Shown here piece after piece: positions 22,664-35,500 of a DNA stretch of 64,000 nt. The stretch covers positions 434,001-498,000 of the forward strand of contig BTRK01000004.1 in the NCBI GenBank assembly GCA_036245805.1, in the 5' to 3' direction. Position numbers and translations under genes: made by a program. The stretch is from Pristionchus mayeri. Its lineage: Eukaryota > Nematoda > Chromadorea > Rhabditida > Neodiplogasteridae. Position 1 is the first letter of the stretch. Every line of letters starts with the position of its first letter. The notes below the pieces were generated by a model. The model was not told where the DNA came from. It did no database searches and saw only the letters and a program-made list of their open reading frames with translations.

Positions 22664-24923
22664 ATGACCTACTGGTTGTCGCTCGGGCTCCTGCTTGTCG
22701 CATTTGCAGCAGCTGCAGCAGACGGCCGCGAGCAGCACAGTTTACGGTACGGGCTGTGAATCTGCTGCGTCAATGCGATGTTGTGTGATGATTGCGGGTA
22801 TTGTGCAGGAAGCCTCGTCACATCGTCGATTCCTCGTCGCACCAAGGTTTCGCGCCCTCTTTCACCTTCAAATCCGCCGACAACACCTACCGAGAGGGAA
22901 CGCCAGCGAAATTGCACTGTGAAGTTGGCAATGTGTGATCTTTGATCTTGATCTTTGATCCTATGTCGACCCTTACTGAAACAAGTTCGGAACGCACTCA
23001 GGTATCGGGCAAGCCGCGACCAACGATCGAGTGGTTCTTCCGGAATGAGAGATTAACTCGCGCAAGCACGAAATCTCGCACGGAGGCCAGATTCTCAAGG
23101 TGTATCCGTTCCTGGACACCGATGTGGGAAGGTCAGTGTGCTCATGGCTGTACCCATTCTTTTGTACATATTTGTTTTTTTCAATTATGGAAAACAAATA
23201 GGCCGATATTTATCTCCTTCTAGTTACGTCTGTCGCGCTGCTAACGCTCATGGGAGAATTGAGCACACCATTCGGGTTGACCTACTGAGCAGGTAAGATA
23301 TCAACGTTGTTTTACCCCTTCTGTTGCCGTACAGAAAAGGCGTGAAATGGAATTGAGAGACTATCGACACTAGATCGAATGGTGTACTTGTTCATATATC
23401 AAAGATGTTATGACGTTATTGTTCTCATCCGAACTATCACAGTGTGCCTCCTACCATCTTCGACGCACCCTCTTCTTCTTCGGTGAATCCGGGCGAGCAG
23501 TTGACTCTTCGCTGTCGTGCCAATGACGTGCCCCGACCATCGGTCTCGTGGTTCTTCGAGGGCGCTGAAATACCGCGCGCAAGAGGACGATTCGCCGTGA
23601 GCTTTCAGCATCATTGAGCGCATTTATTGACACGTGTGTTGATTGAGCATGCATAGATTTCCGCGGACGGTACCGAGCTCACCATTTCGCGCGTCTCGCG
23701 ACAGGATGACGGCGTTTTCGCGTGCATGGCAGGTGCGATATACTGACTGTTCAATTTGATAGTTGTGTTGTTAACGTTTTTGTTTCTTTCCTTTGCACAC
23801 CCTCCATCGATCGAGTGGAGAGTGAGTGCAGGGAATGAGGAGACAATGGAATCATTTCTCCAACTTCGATGTCATCCTTCCAGCGAACAGCGTCGGGTCG
23901 ATGATGGCGGACGCGCGAGTGACAGTGAAGGGAGTGCAGGCGATCGATGCTTCCTTCGACGATGCCACCCTCAGGAGCATCGTCGATAGGGCGAGAGCGA
24001 ATGTGAACAAGTAAGCATTTGAGTCAAGATATTGTACGGTTTTGCTAGATTTCATGAGTATGCAGCGTAGAAAATTATGATTTGATTCCTGCAGAGGTAA
24101 CTTAATGGAGGTCATAGTAAGAGTAGAGAGTGTGGCACGTGGACAGGGACACTCTTCGTTGTTCGCAATCTCTAAATATGATTTATGTTTAGTGCATATT
24201 GAGAAGAACGATACGATCTGCTTTCCAGCGCGATCAACACGACGAAGGCGGATCTCACGCAGAGCGGAGTGAGATCTGTGGCTGATCTGCGCAAACTCTT
24301 CCGCTTCGCCATACCATCGGAGGCCGCCGATCTCTCAAAGGTCAAAACAACAACAAGCAGTGGCAAAAAAAAAAAAAATAAACATGTAAGTCTACGTTAT
24401 AGGCCCGAGAGATCTACGAGGAGTCCTTCCGCCTTGTAAATGCTCATGTGGAAAAGGGTGAGCTCTGTTTAAATCTACAGACTTTTCCTGGAAATTCTTC
24501 CCCCAAATTTAACACTCTTTCCTTTTACGAAGTGTTTTTTACTCAGAAAATGAAGAGATGAAGAGGTTTGAAAATGAAGAGGTTTAGGTCTGAATCTCAA
24601 CGGCGTGGACATCTCCGGGAAGAACGTCTCCTTCGAGCTGCTCCTGGCGCCAGCGCACGTCCAGACGATCATGGAACTCACTGGGTGTCAGGTCCAGAAT
24701 CCTAAACAATGATGGACAATAAGTCAAAATGAAAAATTGCTCTAGTCTCTCTAATGCTTATCGTTTAATTAACAGGTTAGAAAGAGTTTTGTGATGTTTG
24801 CAAAACTCAAAATGAAGGAAAGCACGTTAGACTCCGAGATTTAGATCCTACGACGGTCAGTGTAACAACATCGATCGTCCCCAGTGGGGTGCTGCGCAGA
24901 CTCAACTGAGGTATCTAAATTAA

Positions 24924-26203
24924 GAGACCGGATCGGTAATTCTCGACCACCCCGCGGCCACGACCCATCTCACGCCCCTACTGAGAACCTCACGCCCCTA
25001 CTTTGTGCATGGACACCCCTTGGCCCCACGTTGCACATAATACCCGTGATTTCTCAATTTCGCTTCTGCGCACGAAAATATATAATCTCAAACTCGAAAA
25101 ATCGAAATTTCATATTTTCTGAACGGGAAGAGATAGATTCGTAATCTCTTTTTCGCTGATCTAGGTATGTCCAAAAACCAAAAATGAGCCATTCTGATTG
25201 AATCCCAGTCGATCGTAATGATGAGTTTATATACTCAAATTTCACATTTTGACCCTTTTCTCCAGCATATGAAAAAACCTCACGGGCTTTCTATGATTAA
25301 AATGAACCCGGATGAAAACTGAACAAAATGCGCCATTCAAAAATCCGATTCGTTTTCTGCGCTGTCGTTCCTCAAGCCGAAAATTAGTTAGCTTTCAGGT
25401 TTTCCGATGCATTCTCCATATCAACTATGTAGCGGCGCAATGGATGAAAAAAGCACTCTTACCAACCGACAACGCAAAAACTTATTGAAAATTCGAAGTT
25501 TGACTCGTTCGAAAAAAGTCAATTTTTGGATTCCCGATTTTGCTCACATTTGGGCACCTCTATATGCGGAATTTCAAATATTTAGAGGTTCACATGCATT
25601 CTAATATGAAGTATGTTTCCATGTGAATAACTAGATACGCATAAGAGCCTCTGTGCTTGCATGAATCTCCGAATATTTTTCGTCCAATTGTGCACCAGCG
25701 AGTGGATCGAGCAAATATTTTCACCTGAAATTGTATGAAATCGAGTTGATTTAATGGTATCATATCATAATTGAACCATAAATGCAGAAATAATACTGAA
25801 AATATGGCGTACTCCTAATTTTCAAAAATACGATTCTCAAATGTTCGATTTTTCATATGCTGGAGAAAAGGGTCAAAATGTGAAATTTGGGTATATCAAA
25901 TCATCATTATGATCGACTGGGATTCAATCAGAATGGCTCATTTTTGGTTTTTGGACATACCTAGATCAGCGAAAAAGAGATTACGAATCTATCTCTTCCC
26001 GTTCAGAAAATATGAAATTTCGATTTTTCGAGTTTGAGATTATATATTTTCGTGCGCAGAAGCGAAATTGAGAAATCACGGGTATTATGTGCAACGTGGG
26101 GCCAAGGGGTGTCCATGCACAAAGTAGGGGCGTGAGGTTCTCATTATGATGGGTCGTGGCCGCGGGGGTGGCGATTATGGTCGAGTCTTACCGATCCGGT
26201 CTC
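24924..26203. mobile_element. Palindromic TTAA-flanked element, 1.28 kb
   Basis: It starts GAGACCGGATCGGTAA and ends with the inverted match, with TTAA at 24920-24923 and 26204-26207. The arms of about 360 bp pair closely (for example GCCGCGGCCACGACCC blocks and the stretch around CACGCCCCTACTTTGTGCAT); the middle is less paired. No transposase is present. It lies in the large peroxidasin intron and its right TTAA is also the left TTAA of the 6.4 kb element. A partial copy is at 63072. Confidence 0.85.
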
Positions 26204-26325
26204 TTAAAGGGACCTGGCACTCTTAGAACAGTGCCGCCCATATGAAATGTATCACCTTTCCGTTCATCTTTGTCAAAAAATAAAAAAATAAAAATCAATA
26301 ATTAAGCTAAGAATGAATATCAAAG

Positions 26326-26390
26326 TTCAAGACCGGAGCCGGAATTAATACTCGGGTTGAAAAGGTATTAATTCCGGCTCCGGTCTTGAA
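26326..26390. repeat. Perfect 26 bp hairpin upstream of the transposase
   Basis: CAAGACCGGAGCCGGAATTA at about 26328 is repeated in inverted form after a 13 bp loop, ending at 26390. The stem is perfect over about 26 bp. It lies about 110 bp before the transposase ATG and could act in transposase binding or be a separate mini-element. Confidence 0.75.
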
Positions 26391-26502
26391 GTTTTATTTT
26401 CAAGTCTTACTGTGCTTTTTGTCTTATAGATCTTTTATATTTTTTTGTAATTTTACTTATTTCCATTTTTGTTTGATTATGCTCGCCGAGACCCAATTCA
26501 GC

Positions 26503-29500
26503 ATGGCTAGCGTTAGGAAGAGACGTTGCTTCCTCTGTGGGGAGGAGGCGGAGAGTACAAGGAACTTCCCTCATCGGTCGAGACCTCTGCTTCAAAGGGA
26601 GTGGCTGCTCAGACAGGGGCTAGATGAACAGGGAACAGCTCGTCTAAGGGATAGACACTCTTCGGTGAAAGAGCCTAGATGGTGTTTGCGCCACTTCGAC
26701 TCCCCCTCCGATGAACTACCCAAGGACGTGAGTTCTATAAATTGTTTTACTAAAATGAACCTCTTCTGCCCGCGTGACGAATACACCTGCCCATTGCTTC
26801 AGCGCCGAAGTGTCGTTGTCCGCCCTGTTTGCATCCCTACTGTCCCCCTACGCACGACTAGACCAGCGGATCTCGTTCCGCCATCCCAATTCGCTGCCAC
26901 ACAACCAGTTTACCATCAACCCCCACGAAGACAAGTGAGTTCAGCTGCAGCCTAACGATATCTGAATGAACATCAATGGGAGATTTATATCTACGATAAA
27001 CTGCAGTAAAACTATAAGGCACACAACATCAAACTATTGATCGATCTTGACACAGTAGAATCATCGACCTACAATCCTCAATTAGACATACTAAATCGAC
27101 TGATCATGGAGCACATGCCCGTTCCAGGCAGGACCAGGTTCGGTTCGTCGCTCCCGATCACTTTCTCCAAGCGCTTCGCATACAGATGTAAGTGGAAAGT
27201 ATATTATTCAGAACTCAAAGAATACATAATCAATGATTTTACATAAATGTCATCATGAAAATTTTGAACAATAAACTTTACATAAATGTAATCATGAAAA
27301 TTTTGAACAATAAATATCGGGACAACTAAGCATGCAATAATGATACGAAACAATTGATGAAATCTAAAAAAAACAAAAGGTTCCTCGATGGCGCCTCCCC
27401 CCTCGATTCCGACGACGATCCAGACGACGTCGGTTCCTGGAATCAAATGGATGAGGTCATACCAAAGAGGTTCAAAAGTGATCGCTCTACTGCAACAATG
27501 GCTACTATCCAGTCACAGGTGAGTCATTTCGGGGTAATTTTGCCAGTTACTAGTTGTAGCACTCGGAGTACCGGTACTCTCAAAATTCTAACCAAGGGGA
27601 AGAGGATGAGGAAATGGAGGAGGAAGAAGAGATTGTGAAAGAGTTGGGCCGATATGCCGTGATAGAAGATGCTTGCCTGAAGCGGCTGCTAAAGCGGTGT
27701 GAAGAGTGTGGGGAGGTACTCGACCAGAGTCTGATCGATATGAGGAGAGAGGGAAGTGCATGGGTTGTCCCCTATCACTGTCTGAACCACAAATGCAATG
27801 CCGTTGTGACCATTGAGACCCAACAGAAAGTGGGAAAAGGGAGAGGACAAGTATTCTCGTTCAATCATTCTCTCGCCATTGCTGCATTTATAACTGGAAC
27901 CCCTACTCCGGTAAGAAGCAGTATCTGTGGCTAGGAGGTTTCCTGTTTTACAGAGGTTGTGTGACCTTGGATTTCTTCTCAAACTCGATTTGCCATCTGA
28001 CCGCCGCAAGACAGTTCGTGAAATTGGGAGCGTATCTATCGAACGAGTATACGATTCCTGGCAAGAAATGGCAAGAGAAATCGCGGTTGATGCATCTTTG
28101 GTATCCTCATGTATTTTTGAAAATCTATGATATTTCTATAATAGGGTAATGGACTAGAAGTATCTATCGATGGACAGTTTGATGCTCCCGGCCACACGGC
28201 AACTAACAATAAAAACACGGTCATCGATTGCCATACGAAACTTGCAATCGCGTCGGCCGTATTACACAAGGGATTACCAGGAATAGGTACAATTGCCGCA
28301 CTAAAACGAATAATCTGCAATCTCAGACGGAGATTCCTGTCGTATGGAATCAGTGGGCACCCACCAAGCGCTTGTCGAATTAATCGATAACGGCATAGAA
28401 ATAAGGTGATGACGTTTATAAATAGTAAAGCCATTCATCCACGTATTCTAGACGGAGAGTAGGTGATCAGAATATGATGGTTAACAAGATATTGCGCGAG
28501 GATCCAAAGACAGCGAATATAGAGATGACGCTAGACTGGTGGCACGTTCAGAAGTCCCTGAGAAAGGAATGGTGGCAGGTCGGGTGTACACGAAAATCTA
28601 ATAAATTTCGTAATCATACACCATTCAAGATGGTGAAAGCAAATCCCGCCCTCGCACCCTTCTACCGAATGTTTTTCAACCACCTGTTCCATGTGCACAA
28701 GACATATCCCAAGAAAGAAGATCGCCCTCGCGCCCTCGAAGTTGTTCAGTCGTTTGTTATGCATATCCTGGGCAAACACAAGTGGGCTAAGGTGATACTA
28801 ATGCAGTAGAGTGTCATCGGTAGGTTATGTTTATAGAGTGATGAGTTCAAATTGATCACGAAGTGCGAACATGGGAAACTGAAGAGGATGAAAAGGGGAG
28901 AAAAGCGACTGACATTGAAGGTTTGAATAGGGGAAAGCTAAACTATTTCGAGCGTGTCACTAATTGTAGGCTGGCAGCAAAGAATTAGAAACGGTTAGAG
29001 AGATGCTGTTCGCCCCCAAGTTTGTAAAGGCTTTCCTCTCTGCTGCCTCGCTCATCGACACTTCAATCAATGAATCTTTTCACTCGCTCAGTCTTATGTA
29101 TTCGCCGAAAAGATTCGCTTGGTCAGTGAATGATCGAAAGGAAATAATATTCGATTGCAGCGCTCCCCACTATTACTCGTTGAAGACCAAAGTGTCCATT
29201 CTTCACTATAATAGTCTCGCTTTTGATGACATATTAGGGACGAGAGGAGAGATTGGAAATGCGCTCGTTTCTAGGAAGGGAAGATTAGTAGCAGCGATTA
29301 AGAGAAAGAGAGGAAAAGGCACCCATTGTTGGAGGGATGAGGTAAGAAAGACTGTTTTCGGAATTATATGTATGAGCAATTACAGATTATGGAAGAAAGT
29401 CTACGCGTGAGAGACGAGTTGAGCGAGCAACGGGTGATGCGAAGAATGGGTGTTCCCCGAGATGATGTCTACGATGAGCTCATTAGTTGGTGGGAGGAGA

Positions 29501-29628
29501 AGGAGAAGGCTCAGCTGGAGTCGGGTTATGAGGATTATGAGAAAGAGGGTTTCGATTTCGGGGACTCTAGTGAGGAAGAGATGGGACCTCAGGAGAATGC
29601 GGGAGAGGACAAATCCCAAGAATTCTAG
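26503..29628 (+). CDS. THAP-domain transposase, Kolobok-like
   Basis: Transposase gene in about ten exons. The N-terminal C2CH THAP-like zinc finger is visible in the first exon (CFLCGEEAE, then WCLRHFDSP: C-x2-C and C-x2-H). Then come a Ser/Asp-rich linker (27354-27520), a CxxC module (CEECGEV, 27697), a DNA-binding-like block (27955-28110), and the catalytic region. This starts with VSIDGQFDAPGHTATNN (28160) and continues GDSCRMESVGTHQALVELI (28328), TLDWWHVQKSLRKEWW (28531) and SINESFHSLSLMYSPKRFAW (29063). The order DGxxDxPG, DxWHVxKSL, NESFH with a KR block is that of a widespread metazoan transposase family with THAP fingers. It ends at TAG 29626-29628 after a Glu-rich tail. I saw no stop inside the exons, so it may be intact. 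A second ATG exists at 26479 in the same frame. Confidence 0.7.
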
Positions 29629-29749
29629 TACTTGTGATTCTCGCTTATATGTTGATAAAAAATACAAAGCAATCATCCATCGGACACCTAATTTTAGAAA
29701 TTGTCAAGGGATATTGAGAGGAAAGGATACGTGTTTTCATATAAGCGAA

Positions 29750-30460
29750 AGTAACCCACTCTCGGGGTAGATCTCCTCGAGGGTGGTGGTCTTCCTGTCC
29801 TTGACGAGACGTCCGAGCTTGCTCGCGGGCATCCGTTCCTTGTCTCTTTCCTTTCCTCTGCATCCACAGCTGCAATATGAATAAGAATATTTTTACATGG
29901 CACATTGAGATAAACAATATTTACGTGATCGGGTACCACGTGGTACGGTCCCGGCATCATGTGATTGATTCCTGGTACCACGTGATATGTTCCCAGTACC
30001 TCGTGGTACCGTCCCGGGGCGGTCGGGTTCCGAAATGGTACCGTGAGATACGGACCTGGTACCGACTTGGTCACACATGATACTTATCAAGGACTGATAT
30101 GCTAGAGACATGAAGCCGAGTCCCCACTCACGGATGGCGGTGGCCCCAGTCCGACGTGACCGTTGTAGTCTCCGATAGCGGCGAAGGCCTTGAAGCGGGT
30201 TCGCTGTCCGGCTCTGTAATGAACATATTTACATAAAAATAGACTATGTCGGCAATGCTCGAAGTAAACAAGTACAACAAACGACCTTGTACACATACTT
30301 CCTATGTCAACGATTTGTCGGCCCAGGTGAGGAAAGTTTTCACCGATCAGCAATATCACAAACCTGGTCTGCTTGTGGATGGGGATGATCTTGAGGACCT
30401 CATCCTTCAGGTTGTAGCAGAGATAGTCGATGAGCTCGAACTCCTGAAGTGTTGTAGAAA
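29750..30460 (-). pseudogene. rps-2: Scrambled fragment of ribosomal protein S2 (uS5) gene
   Basis: The minus strand encodes two pieces of ribosomal protein uS5. At 30375-30460 the peptide is EFELIDYLCYNLKDEVLKII, and after an intron at about 30160-30215 it continues AGQRTRFKAFAAIGDYNGHV. The frame then breaks: seven residues expected before ATAIR are missing and ATAIR is in another frame. A second piece, ASKLGRLVKDRKTTTLEEIY (29770-29850), belongs upstream of the first in the protein but lies downstream of it on the strand. The gene is therefore rearranged and cannot give uS5. Introns are kept, so it was copied as genomic DNA, not as a retrocopy. Confidence 0.8.
29920..30080. repeat. Imperfect minisatellite of GGTACCACGTGG-type units
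   Basis: Repeated short units of roughly 20-22 bp carry palindromic cores such as GGTACCACGTGGTAC, GGTACCACGTGAT and CTCGTGGTACCGTCCC. It lies between the two misordered rps-2 pieces inside the 6.4 kb element, and could mark the join where they were rearranged. Confidence 0.7.
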
Positions 30461-30474
30461 CTGGTAATGCTCAC

Positions 30475-31190
30475 ATAAAAAAGTTTTTTTACTCGCAAGC
30501 ACATTGGTGCGGGGAAGTGTGTCTAAGCCTAGCCTTTCCCTATGAGGCCATTTTTCTCTCCTAAAAAGCCAAACTCAATTCCACGATATAATCAAACATG
30601 TTGTCAGTATAAAGTCAAAGCGTATTATCCTATCGATTTTATGTTTATGCCACCTTAGCAAGTTTTAGAACGAAAATGAAACATAGAAAAAACATGAAAA
30701 ATCATGTGGTATTTTTTCTTAAAATCAAGTAGGTAGGTGTCAATTTCGATATTTTTCATGCTATGTTACGCACAGCACCATTTTCGAACCGCAAAAATAC
30801 GGAGAACATTTTAGTAAAGTCGAAAACCATAAGGACGCTGAATCCAAAAAAAAACGATAATCGGAAAACTGTTTTCGAGCTGTAACATTTTTTAACTTGA
30901 AAATTTAAATTCTATAAATAAATATAAATATTAATGGCATAGTAAAGGTAATAAATAACCTATTAGTGAGCTATGAACGCAACTTTGCAAGGTGTAAAAT
31001 GAAAACACATGAATGCACTACGCTGCGATTGACATCCGAAGATATATTCCCGTCAAAGAATAAAATGGAGCCCGCTTATCCTCAATCTCTACCAAACTAA
31101 ATAACTCATGCAAGATTCGGGGGCAATACATGCTATGGTATACTTAGAAATTAGAATATGGAACGTAATTTTAATAAATAAACGTAAACT
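30475..31190. other. AT-rich filler inside the 6.4 kb element
   Basis: No coding signal on either strand. Here one would expect the missing 3' exons of rps-18, and they are absent. Confidence 0.5.
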
Positions 31191-31199
31191 AGCCTTTGT

Positions 31200-31765
31200 T
31201 GAAGCAGATCTTCTTGAGACGCTCGAGTTCCTCACGCCACTTGTTGTCCATTCCGGTGGAGAGAACCTAAAGCATATCCATGGTAACCTCTACAGGAACA
31301 ACATGTTTTGCAATCGCCAAATGTGAAGATATAAACAAATGAAATATGGTTCTAAGAATATTACACTGGGCAGTCTTTCCGCCCTTGTAGTCTTTCTTTA
31401 TGTTGAGGAACCAGTCGGGGATCTTGTACTGGGTAGGGTTCAGCATGGCGGTGGTGATCTTCTCGATCTCCTCATCGGAGAGCTCTTCAGCTCGTCCGGT
31501 CAAGTCCCTGAAAAACAGCAGTACATAGCAACCAGCGTTATCACGAACTTGATTAGCCTGACCCTGACTCTAAGCATTCTAATCATGTAAATAAGTACTC
31601 GAACAAACAGAGTCTAATGTGAAGTTCAGGGACCAATAACCGAAATTAAATAGGAGCAAACCTTGACGGGCGCCAGAGCGAAGGGGTCATCTTGTTTCCA
31701 TCGGTGTTGCTGTTCATCACGCGATGAATGTGCTGGAACTTCTCGGGCATGATGAGGGACGACAT
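31200..31765 (-). pseudogene. rps-18: Broken copy of ribosomal protein S18 (uS13) gene
   Basis: ATG at 31763-31765 begins SLIMPEKFQHIHRVMNSNTD, the N-terminus of uS13, followed by a frame change (the expected PFALAPVK is in another frame) and a donor AAG|GTTTGC. The next exon (31355-31508) has [20 protein letters not shown] and [14 protein letters not shown] third (31205-31270) has VLSTGMDNKWREELERLKKI. Missing are about 15-20 residues after the first exon (the GVGRR region) and the whole C-terminal third with the RGQ/KTT rRNA-binding part. The donor after GGKTAQ is also displaced by one base. It is not a functional ribosomal gene. Confidence 0.8.
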
Positions 31766-31779
31766 GGCTGTCGTGCCTT

Positions 31780-32570
31780 AACTGAAATGGCTCGAGTTAA
31801 AGCGAATTCTCACGTAAAAGAGCGAAAACTGAATAAAACATTGGCGTCAGAGGGATGTTGTGTATTCCCTAGTGTGGTACAGAGAGGGGCCGCAGCGTAT
31901 AAGTGACTAGTTTATACAGAGACGAAAAATAGACATGGAAAGACCGGGCGACTAGATTGCTCGAGAGCTAAAATAGCAATTGACGAGGGGAGAGAAGGAT
32001 GCACTTCGCGGGAACGCGCGGGAGAATGAGAGTGCGAGAGAACGAGCGGGCGCACGTGCATTCTAGTCAACAACTTGCAAATGGAGCGTAAACAACTGGG
32101 GGAATGAGTAAACATGCGACATGTGAGTGTCTGTGTACCGGAATAAGGGTAAATCGATATTAGCATGATCCCTATACAACACGGGCATTAATTGAAGCCA
32201 AATAGTATGTATGCCGTTAATTAAGGTGTTTACCGGTCTCGGTAAAAGAAGAACGGAAATAATGCACGAAATACGAGTGAAAAACAGGAAAACATCAGCC
32301 AAATACGGGCAAACTTGACGCAGAGTCGAGGGCACAGTCGCGTCCTCCCAACCCTGACTGCCGATCAGCGGGTCAGCATGGCCGGATCCAAGCAGCCAAC
32401 TGACCCGAGCATAACTATGTTTATCGTAAACGGGGCGAACACGCGGAACAATTAATTCGAACCGTATTTTTAAAATCACGAATTAAATTTAATTATTTTT
32501 TAAAAATTTTTTTATTATTTTTAGTGATGTTTTTGGATCATTCTACGCGCACAGGGATAATATGGTTTTA
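31780..32570. other. Right part of the 6.4 kb element, no recognisable gene
   Basis: Open frames such as 32063-32479 on the minus strand show no known domain. The part next to 31765 may derive from the upstream region of the captured rps-18. The final 100 bp are AT-rich up to the inverted end. Confidence 0.4.
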
Positions 32571-35500
32571 CGTTTCCAGGTCCCTTTAATATCAAAATAT
32601 GTACCTGCTAGGCTATTTTTCACATGCGCGTTCAATTATGCGAATTCTAAAAAATAGAAGGTGTAAAAACAGACGTCTGCTTCCTGCCCGATACGAGAAC
32701 GGATTCAACACGCCCGTAGGTTGGAACAGCGGTCGACTATACAACGGATACCCGCTGCCCAACGTGCGATTGGTGAGCCCATCAGACCATTCATTTTCGT
32801 TATCCTATTTTTTGCGAACAGTTCTGAAATTCAATTAATTAGTCATTAGCTGCAGGAGTATGGCCCAGTTCAAACGATGCCATCGAACACTATTTACCAC
32901 AGTAATCACACTGTCTTTGAGAGAGTACTGGAAATGAAGAGTCGAAGGACTGTTTATCGAACACTATTTTTCCGGTTTCCCGTCAGCTTGTAGCCACGCG
33001 CGAGATCACCCCGCACACCTCGCTCTCCTCCTTCGTGATGCAGTGGGGACAGGTCGTCGGTGAGTCCACCGTATCCATCACACGCAGGTATGCGATCACT
33101 AACTGATTGTTAATGACATGTGCGAAAATGTACAGACGGTTAGTTTACCGTATCCATCTCACTCATTCATGTAATCGCTAACTGATTTTAATAATCTAAA
33201 ACAATGCAGACCACGACATCACGCACACGCTCTTCGCTCTGTCTCGCACCGCGTACACCAGTGGTGCGGTGTGCAATCGCACTTGCGACAACGTGGATCC
33301 GTGCTTCAACATCCAGCTGCTGCCCGACGACCCGAAGATCAACCCGGCCAAGTGCATTTCACACTAATTTAATAGAGTAAAAACAAGATAAATTGATAAA
33401 CGCCAAGCTGCGGTTTTGCAAAATATTCTCCATGATATATGTTACGCTTTTAAGCACCAACGAACACTGTTTCAGCGCTGAAATCTACAAGAAGTTCCCG
33501 TGCATGGAATTCGAGAGGTCGGGAGCGATCTGCGGCAGTGGAGAGACGTCTCTTCTCTTCGAGCGAGTGACCCAACGAGAGCAAATGAACATTGTATGCA
33601 GCGATTTAGATATTCTGAATCCTTGAGCATTAGGCATTTTCACCAAGACTTCCGTCCCAGATCACCTCCTACCTCGACGGTTCCTTCCTCTACGGTAGCA
33701 CTGAAGTGCAGGCGGAACTTCTCCAGCGAGAACCCCATGAGATGCTTCATCGCAGGAGATGTGCGCGCGAATGAACAGGTATGCATTGCATTCTTAGGGA
33801 GAAATCAATGGACTCTTGGAAGTGCGATTAAGAAATACCTGTATACGAACAATGAAGTTAAAGATCAATGAATGTGGAGCATCTGAATCGTGAATGATGT
33901 GAGAACTCAATCAGGTTGGCCTAACCGCCATGCATACGCTCTTCCTCCGAGAGCACAATCGTCTTGCCGCGAAGTTGCTCACGCTGAATCCACTCTGGGA
34001 TGGAGAGAAAATCTTCCAGGAAGTGAGCTATTGTCGAAAAATTACCTCTCTTTTCACTCTCACTGTGAATGTTCTCAACGATCACGAAAGTGAAGTTTCG
34101 AGAAATTATACGTATTTATTCAAGACTCGTAAAATCATCGGCGCCGTAATGTAGCACATAACCTACACCGCATGGCTGCCCATCGTCCTGGGAAAGGTTT
34201 CGAAATTTTCCTTATTGAACAACATAACTTGCAATCGCAGACGGCCTACGCAGAGCTACTGGGCGACTACACAGGATACAACCCGAATGTAAGGAATCAG
34301 TAAATTTCGTATTTTCGAAAAATATTTTCGCATTTTGCAAACCGAAGCGGGCATTTCGAACGTGTTCGCCACTGCGGCCTTCCGCTTTGCGCACACATTG
34401 ATCAACCCGAAACTCAAAAGACTGGACAAGAATTTCAAGACGATCCGGCAAGGCGATCTGCCACTGCATAAGGTGTGTGGACTATGTTGTTATTTATTCC
34501 CGACACAATAAATATCCTAAGAGAATGCCCCCCTCCAGGAACGTAGTTTGGAGATAGATTTTTTTGAAACATAAATTAATCTGATACAATTCAATAAAGA
34601 GTGCTTCTAATGCCATTTTCGATAATAGTGTGATAATCTGAGCTATTTCAGGCTCTTTTCGCACCGGAAATCCTGTTGTCCGAGGGTGGTCTCGATCCTC
34701 TCCTTCGTGGTCTCTTCGCTTCGCCGCTGAAGATGCCCAAGCCAAGCCAGCTGCTAAACACCGAGTTGACGGAGAAGCTATTCAACAGAAATGTTGATGT
34801 GAGTGCACAATATTTTATCGTAACAGCGATATAAATTACAGATTGCGCTAGACCTGGCCAGCTTGAATATCCAACGATCAAGAGACCACGGACTGCCCGC
34901 GTAAGCTGATGCTTGAATATGAATATTTAGAATAAGTAGCAAGAAATAATAAGGCAATAAAGGACATAGTTGGTCCCTCTGAATATGTGTTCCATGAGTT
35001 TTTAGAAAATGATTGGTTTTCAGTGAATTTCGTATTTTGTTGCGTATTCTTTAGTCCACTCACTTTTCAAAAATTCTTCAGGTACGTCGAGTACCGTGGC
35101 TTCTGTAACCTCTCGGTGCCCACTACGTGGACGGAGATGGAGGACATCGTCAAGGACGCCGACGTCGTCAGCAAGATGAGAAACGTCTACGGGCATCCAG
35201 GTGAGCAGATTGGGAAATCACTGAAAATTTCAATTTAAAAAATATTATATTGTCCTCGATGCTCAAGGGCAGTACATGACATTGCACTCGTTGATTCTTG
35301 TGAATGCGTTCCAGCGAACATCGACATCTGGGTGGGCGGGATCACAGAGCGGCGGCATTCGGAAGGACTCGTCGGGCCGACGTTCGCTTGCATTATCGCC
35401 GAGCAGTTCAAGAGGATCAGAGACGGCGACAGATTCTGGTAAGAGACAACCTCATTTGGTGAAATTTGGAAAACATAGCATGTGTATTTTTTTCCAAACA

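Follow-up and report, generated by a model that had tools for sequence, protein, structure and literature searches.

A TTAA-flanked transposon copy of 6,386 bp in the nematode Pristionchus mayeri most probably belongs to an autonomous, Kolobok-like cut-and-paste family whose ancestor captured genomic pieces of the host genes rps-18 and rps-2, now carried mainly as passengers (probability roughly 0.85, as judged from DNA sequence). The copy occupies positions 26204–32589 of the window, by which we mean the whole stretch of 64,000 nucleotides that was analyzed. Its features are collected in Table 1.

Table 1. Features of the transposon copy, in window coordinates
Feature	Position	Strand	Remarks
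Left end	26204–26217	+	TTAA target-site copy and 10-bp terminal inverted repeat AGGGACCTGG
Left terminal region	26204–26342	+	about 139 bp, well conserved across diverged subfamilies
Transposase exon 1	26503–26727	+	THAP-like C-x2-C ... C-x2-H-F pattern (by eye)
Transposase exons 2 and 3	26803–27518	+	26803–26934, 27402–27518; exon 3 start tentative
Transposase core exons	27560–29628	+	27560–27910, 27954–28100, 28145–28286, 28327–28404, 28452–28791, 28837–28920, 28970–29341, 29386–29628
rps-2 block 2	29766–29872	-	partial exon; upstream of block 1 in the native gene (order permuted)
rps-2 block 1	30145–30480	-	exon 2, native-homologous intron, part of exon 3; Ribosomal_S5, E 8.7e-10
Spacer	30481–31192	-	separates the rps-18 from the rps-2 blocks
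rps-18 block 2	31193–31506	-	part of exon 2, intron, part of exon 3; Ribosomal_S13, E 1.1e-8
rps-18 block 1	31656–31779	-	first coding exon with 5' splice site; 1-nt deletion near the end shifts the frame
Right end	32576–32589	-	inverted 10-bp repeat and TTAA target-site copy

AGGGACCTGG is found exactly at 26208–26217 and its reverse complement exactly at 32576–32585, and TTAA lies immediately outside both repeats, which gives a perfect 14-bp inverted pair. This confirms an earlier note on the same DNA, according to which perfect 10-bp inverted ends beside TTAA bound a block of about 6.4 kb. Exact matches to the end motif in the window are limited to the two element ends; with up to one mismatch there are five, against 1.25 expected, and five was reached in one of 100 shuffles. 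Other copies with identical boundaries, whose absence the note had set against its own reading, are indicated by 222 occurrences of TTAAAGGGACCTGG genome-wide, against five for the reversed control. At the left end, identity over 26204–26303 is 86–92% to L022, L014, and L033, and identity over the 138–139 bp of terminal sequence is 86–88% to L010, L033, L035, and L038. The loci L001–L008, which are 3-kb cuts around ends, were compared and left out of the counts.

For ten copies picked by their cargo alone, 20 ends were sought and 17 located; 16 of these have TTAA. The related copy L022 has paralogous empty sites that contain one TTAA, with 98% and 96% identity over the whole 244-nt joined flank. 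At the level of the assembly, these ends and empty sites demonstrate that the family inserts into TTAA. For the window copy and for L009, a search with the flanks joined found no empty site. To the right of the element, animal-peroxidase matches start after about 80 bp (five hand-picked ORFs, two of which pass the Pfam cut-off).

Ribosomal pieces are present in 19 of 20 loci picked by end pairs alone, and rps-2 pieces in 18 of the 20; these loci are 20 of the 22 end pairs among the matches listed (100 of 222 motif places). Complete end pairs on C1 and C2, which were likewise counted from the matches listed for 100 of 222 places, contain cargo in 19 of 21 cases by genome searches, and L009 is a 20th. 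Together with the TTAA ends of the cargo-picked copies, the 19 end-picked loci substantiate the proposed link between ends, transposase, and cargo: the pieces sit between the element ends and are evidently mobilized with them. The note had proposed a test for copies both with and without ribosomal fragments; nearly all members read are of the first kind. In total, 27 full loci were read; six of them (L033–L038) were picked from cargo matches and so do not bear on how often cargo is present. The cargo DNA has at least 55 matches, of which 27, including the window, are nearly full length at 97–100% identity. A 31-mer from rps-18 exon 1, picked after the alignment was seen, occurs with up to three mismatches at 117 places, the native gene included (control: 0), and the first 100 of the 117 sites listed have zero mismatches, with two Y positions allowed. 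Cargo is present in at least five subfamilies; all five retain rps-18 exon 1, and other blocks were lost in some. The copy does not represent a recent one-off capture: its lineage is old and modular, comprises several subfamilies, and has cargo in nearly all members read.

The multi-exon transposase gene lies on the plus strand at about 26503–29628, in a model whose phase at the 28404/28452 junction is provisional. In the region of the exon 3 start, the window copy differs by 2 nt from 11 other aligned A copies. The transposase is evidently held by purifying selection, with an omega of 0.12–0.14 between subfamily A and subfamilies B and C. Putative catalytic residues were placed by eye in SIDGQFD, LDWWH, and INESFHS, and DWWH fits DxxH; the whole-protein model reaches a pLDDT of only 44. 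The gene had been described as a THAP-type transposase. Its identity as a transposase stands, given the exons, the omega values, and homologues that comprise 13 Pristionchus proteins. The THAP part is tentative: with E values up to 1, Pfam THAP gave no match in exon 1 of the window or in any of three Pristionchus homologues scanned whose sequence includes this end, and the C2CH pattern in exon 1 is recognized by eye only, with 48 residues between C-x2-C and C-x2-H and with W and P present.

This bears on the superfamily. Membership in another TTAA-inserting or Mutator-type superfamily would agree with the absence of a Pfam THAP match in exon 1 or the homologues and with PF20700, named Mutator-like transposase in Pfam, which was found in all five homologues scanned; we nevertheless consider it unlikely. 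Mutator (MULE) elements have a target-site duplication of about 8–11 bp. By target site, they are ruled out by the 4-bp TTAA and by the empty sites of L022, which join over a single TTAA. The element is instead likely a Kolobok, although of the earlier argument from TTAA plus THAP only the TTAA half is confirmed. Published Kolobok hallmarks, in excerpts of PMC9587614 and PMC6004289, are a TTAA target and 5'-AG (RR) ends, and Kolobok-type T2 MITEs end in AGGRR, which the AGGGA of this element fits. Its termini read 5'-AG...CT-3', in agreement with the 5'-RR / YY-3' rule in the excerpts of PMC9587614. According to the same two sources, Kolobok elements share the TTAA duplication and the RR...YY termini with this element, and some Kolobok lineages encode a second protein; a DDD/E transposase with DxxH would be a further point of likeness, as the motifs placed by eye suggest. 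The second proteins named there, KolX, RecQ helicase, His-Me nuclease, and DEDDh exonuclease, are complete proteins or domains, whereas the cargo here consists of broken host fragments.

On the minus strand, four blocks match native rps-18 (C4:29044532-29045440) and native rps-2 (C4:28630559-28631579), which lie about 413 kb apart, at 78–91% DNA identity. The ribosomal domains in Table 1 come from a Pfam profile search. Since the rps-2 intron of the element aligns with the native rps-2 intron, capture took place at the DNA level, and the pieces evidently derive from host genes as DNA, introns included. The blocks, domains, and intron alignment bear out the note's description of intron-bearing rps-2 and rps-18 fragments opposite the transposase strand. 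At least one cargo piece has already been predicted as a protein (P0014). The capture may have occurred during repair of an excision gap, through template switching to host genes, and a second template switch or a duplication could have produced the permuted rps-2 order.

The cargo is best read as mainly passenger DNA, because its frames are broken and omega is 0.38–1.05 in 16 of 21 comparisons. The reading frame of A-type exon 1 is shifted by a deletion, the first ATG is missing from E, and an in-frame stop in rps-18 exon 3 is common to B and C. Omega is 0.73–1.05 for A versus F, B, and C, values that rest on few sites, and 0.12–0.21 in five of the 21 comparisons, all of which involve the E lineage. 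Against a purely neutral passenger, divergence in the cargo exons is about half that in the intron: per-site differences of A versus F and E are 0.11–0.12 in cargo exons, 0.25–0.31 in the captured intron, and 0.27–0.28 in the spacer, in a data set that is biased towards low exon divergence since the omega and divergence counts used only exon pieces at least 80% identical to native, which removed several from E, B, C, and F. The slowness of exons relative to the adjacent intron or spacer has p values of 2e-4 and 3e-8 for A–F, and of 0.025 and 0.0035 for the weakest pair, F–L033. Synonymous sites are slow too in A–F (dS 0.155 versus intron K 0.30).

These slow exons could mean that the nucleotide sequence of the cargo serves the transposon. 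It might, for example, mimic abundant or licensed germline host mRNAs and so escape small-RNA silencing, which we hold to be improbable; equally improbable is a hostage version of the same reading, in which silencing of the element would hit host ribosomal mRNAs or genes. If true, a useful sequence would explain the slow exons, synonymous sites included, the retention of rps-18 exon 1 throughout the five subfamilies, some of which have lost other blocks, and the presence of cargo with distantly related transposases; the mismatch-free sites listed for the 31-mer point the same way. However, diversity within subfamilies is about equal in exons and flanks (0.0078 vs 0.0087, 0.0098 vs 0.0053, 0.035 vs 0.039, and 0.012 vs 0.020, from 96 of 104 element copies with 8 singletons excluded), and the 96 copies trace to only about four exon-1 lineages. 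The copy set was drawn from 108 records examined, of which 105 were entered (one is the native gene) and L009, L010, and L021 were excluded. Of 80 copies fetched, 76 came from the zero-mismatch exon-1 list and four from native-gene search results, so that exon 1 of the 76 was ascertained on part of itself. The 80% similarity cut and the post hoc choice of the 31-mer also weigh against a useful sequence, and the slow exons may be due to gene conversion or base composition.

The number of captures can be approached through the arrangement of the passenger pieces. The order rps-18, spacer, rps-2 is identical across subfamilies, with a homologous spacer in all; the spacer centre is common to all of them, and over 30704–31003 the window copy is 72–79% identical to L033. 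Shared order and shared spacer support one capture, which would predate the split of the known subfamilies. They also make it very improbable that these ribosomal genes were captured repeatedly and independently by different subfamilies, a reading to which the double occurrence of rps-2 exon 1 in subfamily C lends some support. Lineages A, F, and E have eight common differences from native and miss an identical 30 native bases, which fits one capture, but later changes in the native gene would give the same picture, so these shared differences do not separate one capture from several and may be no counter-evidence to independent ones. The subfamilies are not independent samples. In B and C, the cargo is 92–98% identical and the transposase core 45–75%. 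Such discordant divergence implies different histories for cargo and transposase, and subfamilies appear to have swapped the two modules by recombination after the capture.

That the cargo forms a working protein gene of the transposon, assembled from RPS-18 and RPS-2 parts, is extremely unlikely, even though the annotated partial P. mayeri protein P0014 is identical to A-type exons 2-3 and the comparisons with the E lineage give low omega, because the A frameshift, the missing first ATG of E, the in-frame stop of B and C, the high omega of A versus F, B, and C at few sites, and the variation of the retained pieces with subfamily all speak against it.

The closest precedent is Turmoil-1 of Caenorhabditis elegans, which, in excerpts of PMC2572040, is also a nematode DNA transposon with a transposase and pieces of two unrelated host genes, namely rsp-2 with an intron, and cpg-3; its authors report no coding selection on the rsp-2 piece. 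Turmoil-1 is a Harbinger element, has its pieces within 760-bp inverted repeats, and is present as one full copy and eight fragments (PMC2572040). The P. mayeri family, in contrast, is TTAA/Kolobok-like, has internal pieces on the strand opposite the transposase, and places its rps-18 exon at more than 100 sites in at least five subfamilies. Plant Pack-TYPE elements, including Pack-MULEs, are DNA transposons that likewise capture and spread host coding DNA, but they are described in excerpts of PMC8903248 as non-autonomous, whereas the P. mayeri cargo sits in elements that still encode a transposase. A Pack-TYPE identity is ruled out by this transposase. No earlier description of the element was found, by title and beginning of abstract, among the papers listed from open-licence PubMed Central literature, and the terms Kolobok, TTAA, Mutator, and ribosomal are absent from the searchable text of a P. 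pacificus repeat paper (PMC9297572).

DNA transposons commonly capture pieces of host genes in plants, but such capture is little known in animals; when Turmoil-1 was described, it was called unknown in animals (excerpts of PMC2572040). In P. mayeri, nearly all copies read of an animal transposon with several subfamilies contain captured pieces, and the exon-1 stretch is found at more than 100 places. Partial ribosomal protein genes in the P. mayeri genome can therefore be transposon cargo, which is a warning for annotation. The system also permits a direct test of whether cargo from highly expressed germline genes shields a transposon from small-RNA silencing.

The 10-bp end motif of the element, TTAAAGGGACCTGG, occurs 222 times in the P. 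mayeri assembly (290.8 Mb, 73 contigs), against 5 occurrences of the reversed control pattern. The earlier note had proposed a search for further copies with the same ends, and many full loci were recovered. A genome search with the cargo, that is, the exon-intron pieces of host rps-18 and rps-2 inside the element, gave at least 55 matches. At least 27 of them, counting the window copy, are nearly full length, with identities of 97-100%. Allowing up to 3 mismatches, 117 places in the genome match a 31-nt piece of rps-18 exon 1; this count includes the native gene, and the control gave 0. All 100 places listed of these 117 have zero mismatches. Full loci were read in 27 cases: the window, 20 picked by end pairs, and 6 picked from cargo hits. 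Ribosomal exon sequence is present in 19 of the 20 end-chosen loci and rps-2 sequence in 18 (missing from L010 and L025), and all 6 cargo-chosen loci carry both genes. L009 is without rps-18 exon 1 and retains rps-18 exon 3 and rps-2 exon 1. On contigs C1 and C2, genome searches placed cargo inside 19 of 21 complete end pairs, a count raised to 20 by L009.

By divergence, the full loci other than L010 and L025 fall into five groups: A (window-like; its full-length copies are 97.8-99.2% identical to the window copy), B (L009, L022, L037), C (L014, L016, L021, L027, L036), F (L013, L034), and E (L033, L035, L038). L034 has no TTAA after its far end, and a second perfect end was looked for and not seen in L033, L035, L036, and L038. 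Two A copies on C2, L018 and L019, lie about 1.2 kb apart with matching flanks in inverted order and are an inverted duplication that includes the element. L009 and L025 lie on separate contigs (C1 and C2) with matching flanks, L025 being a shorter version of 2.2 kb. The exception without cargo, L010, spans 4.4 kb and has a left-type end on each side. Ribosomal cargo was looked for in it and none was found; its flanks are reverse complements of one another across the 22 bases printed.

Locations of the element, its cargo, and related features (coordinates without a contig prefix are window positions)
Feature	Location	Strand	Remark
Window	C4:434001-498000
Element, window copy	TTAA 26204-26207 to TTAA 32586-32589		6,386 bp including both TTAAs; perfect 10-bp inverted ends
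rps-18 piece	31656-31779	-	91% identity to native
rps-18 piece	31193-31506	-	78% identity to native
rps-2 piece	30145-30480	-	79% identity to native
rps-2 piece	29766-29872	-	91% over 107 nt to native
Native rps-18	C4:29044532-29045440
Native rps-2	C4:28630559-28631579
Extra last rps-18 exon (L030)	C4:29052811-29052978
L022 joined-flank match	C2:27042971-27043214		about 2 kb from L022
L022 joined-flank match	C2:27043550-27043786		about 2 kb from L022
Adjoining TTAA element	24920-26207		one TTAA common to both elements
Hairpin	26314-26402		38-bp arms, 92% complementary
Degenerate repeats	29932-30068		21-bp spacing

The perfect inverted ends next to TTAA described earlier for the window copy were confirmed on both sides. 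To avoid selection on TTAA, ends were predicted for 10 A copies picked by cargo: 17 of 20 could be located, with TTAA at 16 of these 17, and of the 7 copies with both ends found, 6 have TTAA on both sides. Flanks are unlike between copies by eye, save the duplicated pairs (L018/L019, L009/L025) and repeats common to some. The joined flanks of L022 with a single TTAA gave two full-length matches (244 nt; 98% and 96%), which are paralogous empty sites; the same search for the window copy and for L009 found no empty site. About 80 bp right of the window copy, 5 of 5 hand-picked ORFs have animal-peroxidase matches (Pfam, E 0.0056 to 2.8e-17; 2 of the 5 above Pfam's cut-off), consistent with insertion in an intron of a peroxidasin-like gene. 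The ends of the distinct element adjoining the window copy are inverted, about 360 bp long and 93% identical (TTAAGAGACCGG...). A genome search with one end gave at least 38 more matches, one being the other end of that element. GAG stands next to TTAA in 6 of the 42 element flanks listed. The hairpin near the left end has miRNA-model hits, all below gathering scores.

Alignment to the native genes, which lie about 413 kb apart, bore out intron-bearing rps-2 and rps-18 fragments on the strand opposite the transposase. The rps-2 pieces are permuted relative to the native gene. Subfamily C has the rps-2 exon-1 piece twice and is without rps-2 block 1, which is longest in subfamily F (508 aligned columns, 78%, L034). 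The ancestral arrangement may have been exon1'-exon2-exon3-exon1, with different parts then lost per subfamily. The native rps-2 intron aligns to that of the element (25-27% differences in A and E, 18% in F), which shows that genomic DNA was captured, most simply that of this lineage. The degenerate repeats between the two rps-2 blocks form a short GGTACCACGTGGTACGGTCCC-like run. Some 7.4 kb downstream of the native rps-18 gene lies the extra copy of its last exon, which includes the C-terminal part missing from the transposon copies.

The order rps-18, spacer, rps-2 is common to the subfamilies, with homologous spacers. Over 257 sites, A, F, and E jointly carry 8 substitutions relative to native, where independent changes would be expected to give 0.15, and the same 30 native bases are missing from all three. 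This pattern fits one capture; later changes in the native genes would look identical. Cargo and transposase have diverged unequally: identity between B and C is 92-98% over 30604-31803 and 45-75% over the transposase core (27404 to 29503), dS between A and C is 1.9 for the transposase versus 0.11 for cargo exons, and between A and E it is saturated versus 0.21-0.25. From this we infer that element lineages recombined, swapping modules.

A hand-made 11-exon model gives a window transposase of 743 residues. It matches 13 database proteins, all from Pristionchus (P. mayeri, P. pacificus, P. entomophagus; best E 4.3e-278). PF20700 (Mutator-like transposase) was found in 5 of 5 homologues scanned (E 8.6e-11 to 3e-15) and was not reached in the scan of the window transposase itself. 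Transposase omega for the window is 0.12 and 0.14 against L022 and L037 (B) and 0.13, at dS 1.9, against L014 (C). Relative to the model, the reading frame of the window copy is undamaged. All 11 other A copies aligned have a 2-nt difference in exon 3, which is uncertain in the model; beyond it, 4 are undamaged and 7 have other damage.

Several features of the cargo count against a coding function: rps-18 exon 1 of A has a frame-shifting deletion, E has lost its initial ATG, and an in-frame stop is common to exon 3 of B and C. Of 21 comparisons of cargo omega, from few sites each, 16 give 0.38-1.05 and the other 5, every one involving E, give 0.12-0.21. When copies are compared within subfamilies, exon 1 is about as diverse as the flanks (0.0078/0.0087 in 34 copies, 0.0098/0.0053 in 28, 0.0347/0.0391 in 24, 0.0116/0.0197 in 10). 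Pointing to conservation, exons differ between lineages by 0.112 (A-F, 40/357), 0.120 (A-L033, 14/117), and 0.118 (A-L038, 18/153), versus 0.248, 0.300, and 0.307 for the captured intron and 0.27, 0.28, and 0.27 for the spacer (p from 5e-4 to 3e-8), where omission of exon pieces less than 80% identical to native (1 of 6 for A-F) biases exon divergence downward. Exons and intron likewise differ by 0.085 versus 0.243 for F-L038 (p 4e-4) and 0.128 versus 0.241 for F-L033 (p 0.025). Since synonymous exon sites are slow too (A-F dS 0.155 versus intron K 0.30), selection at the protein level is not the obvious explanation. The slow exon divergence may reflect gene conversion, either with host genes or between elements, or else nucleotide-level constraint or composition.

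Published descriptions of Kolobok give TTAA duplications and 5'-RR/YY-3' termini, with C/DxxH common to Kolobok, hAT, P, MuDR, and Dada (PMC9587614); AGGRR ends are given for T2 MITEs, a group attributed to Kolobok, and a THAP domain is usual in Kolobok transposases (PMC6004289). The element has the TTAA and the termini, its DWWH fits DxxH by eye, and its THAP domain is putative. Among the literature matches listed, none describes the present element. The closest case of cargo capture, going by the part of its description available, is Turmoil-1, a C. elegans Harbinger element holding rsp-2 and cpg-3 pieces (PMC2572040). On that account the present element differs in superfamily, copy number, and cargo position and, unlike Turmoil-1, has a cargo that persists across subfamilies and would have been exchanged between them.
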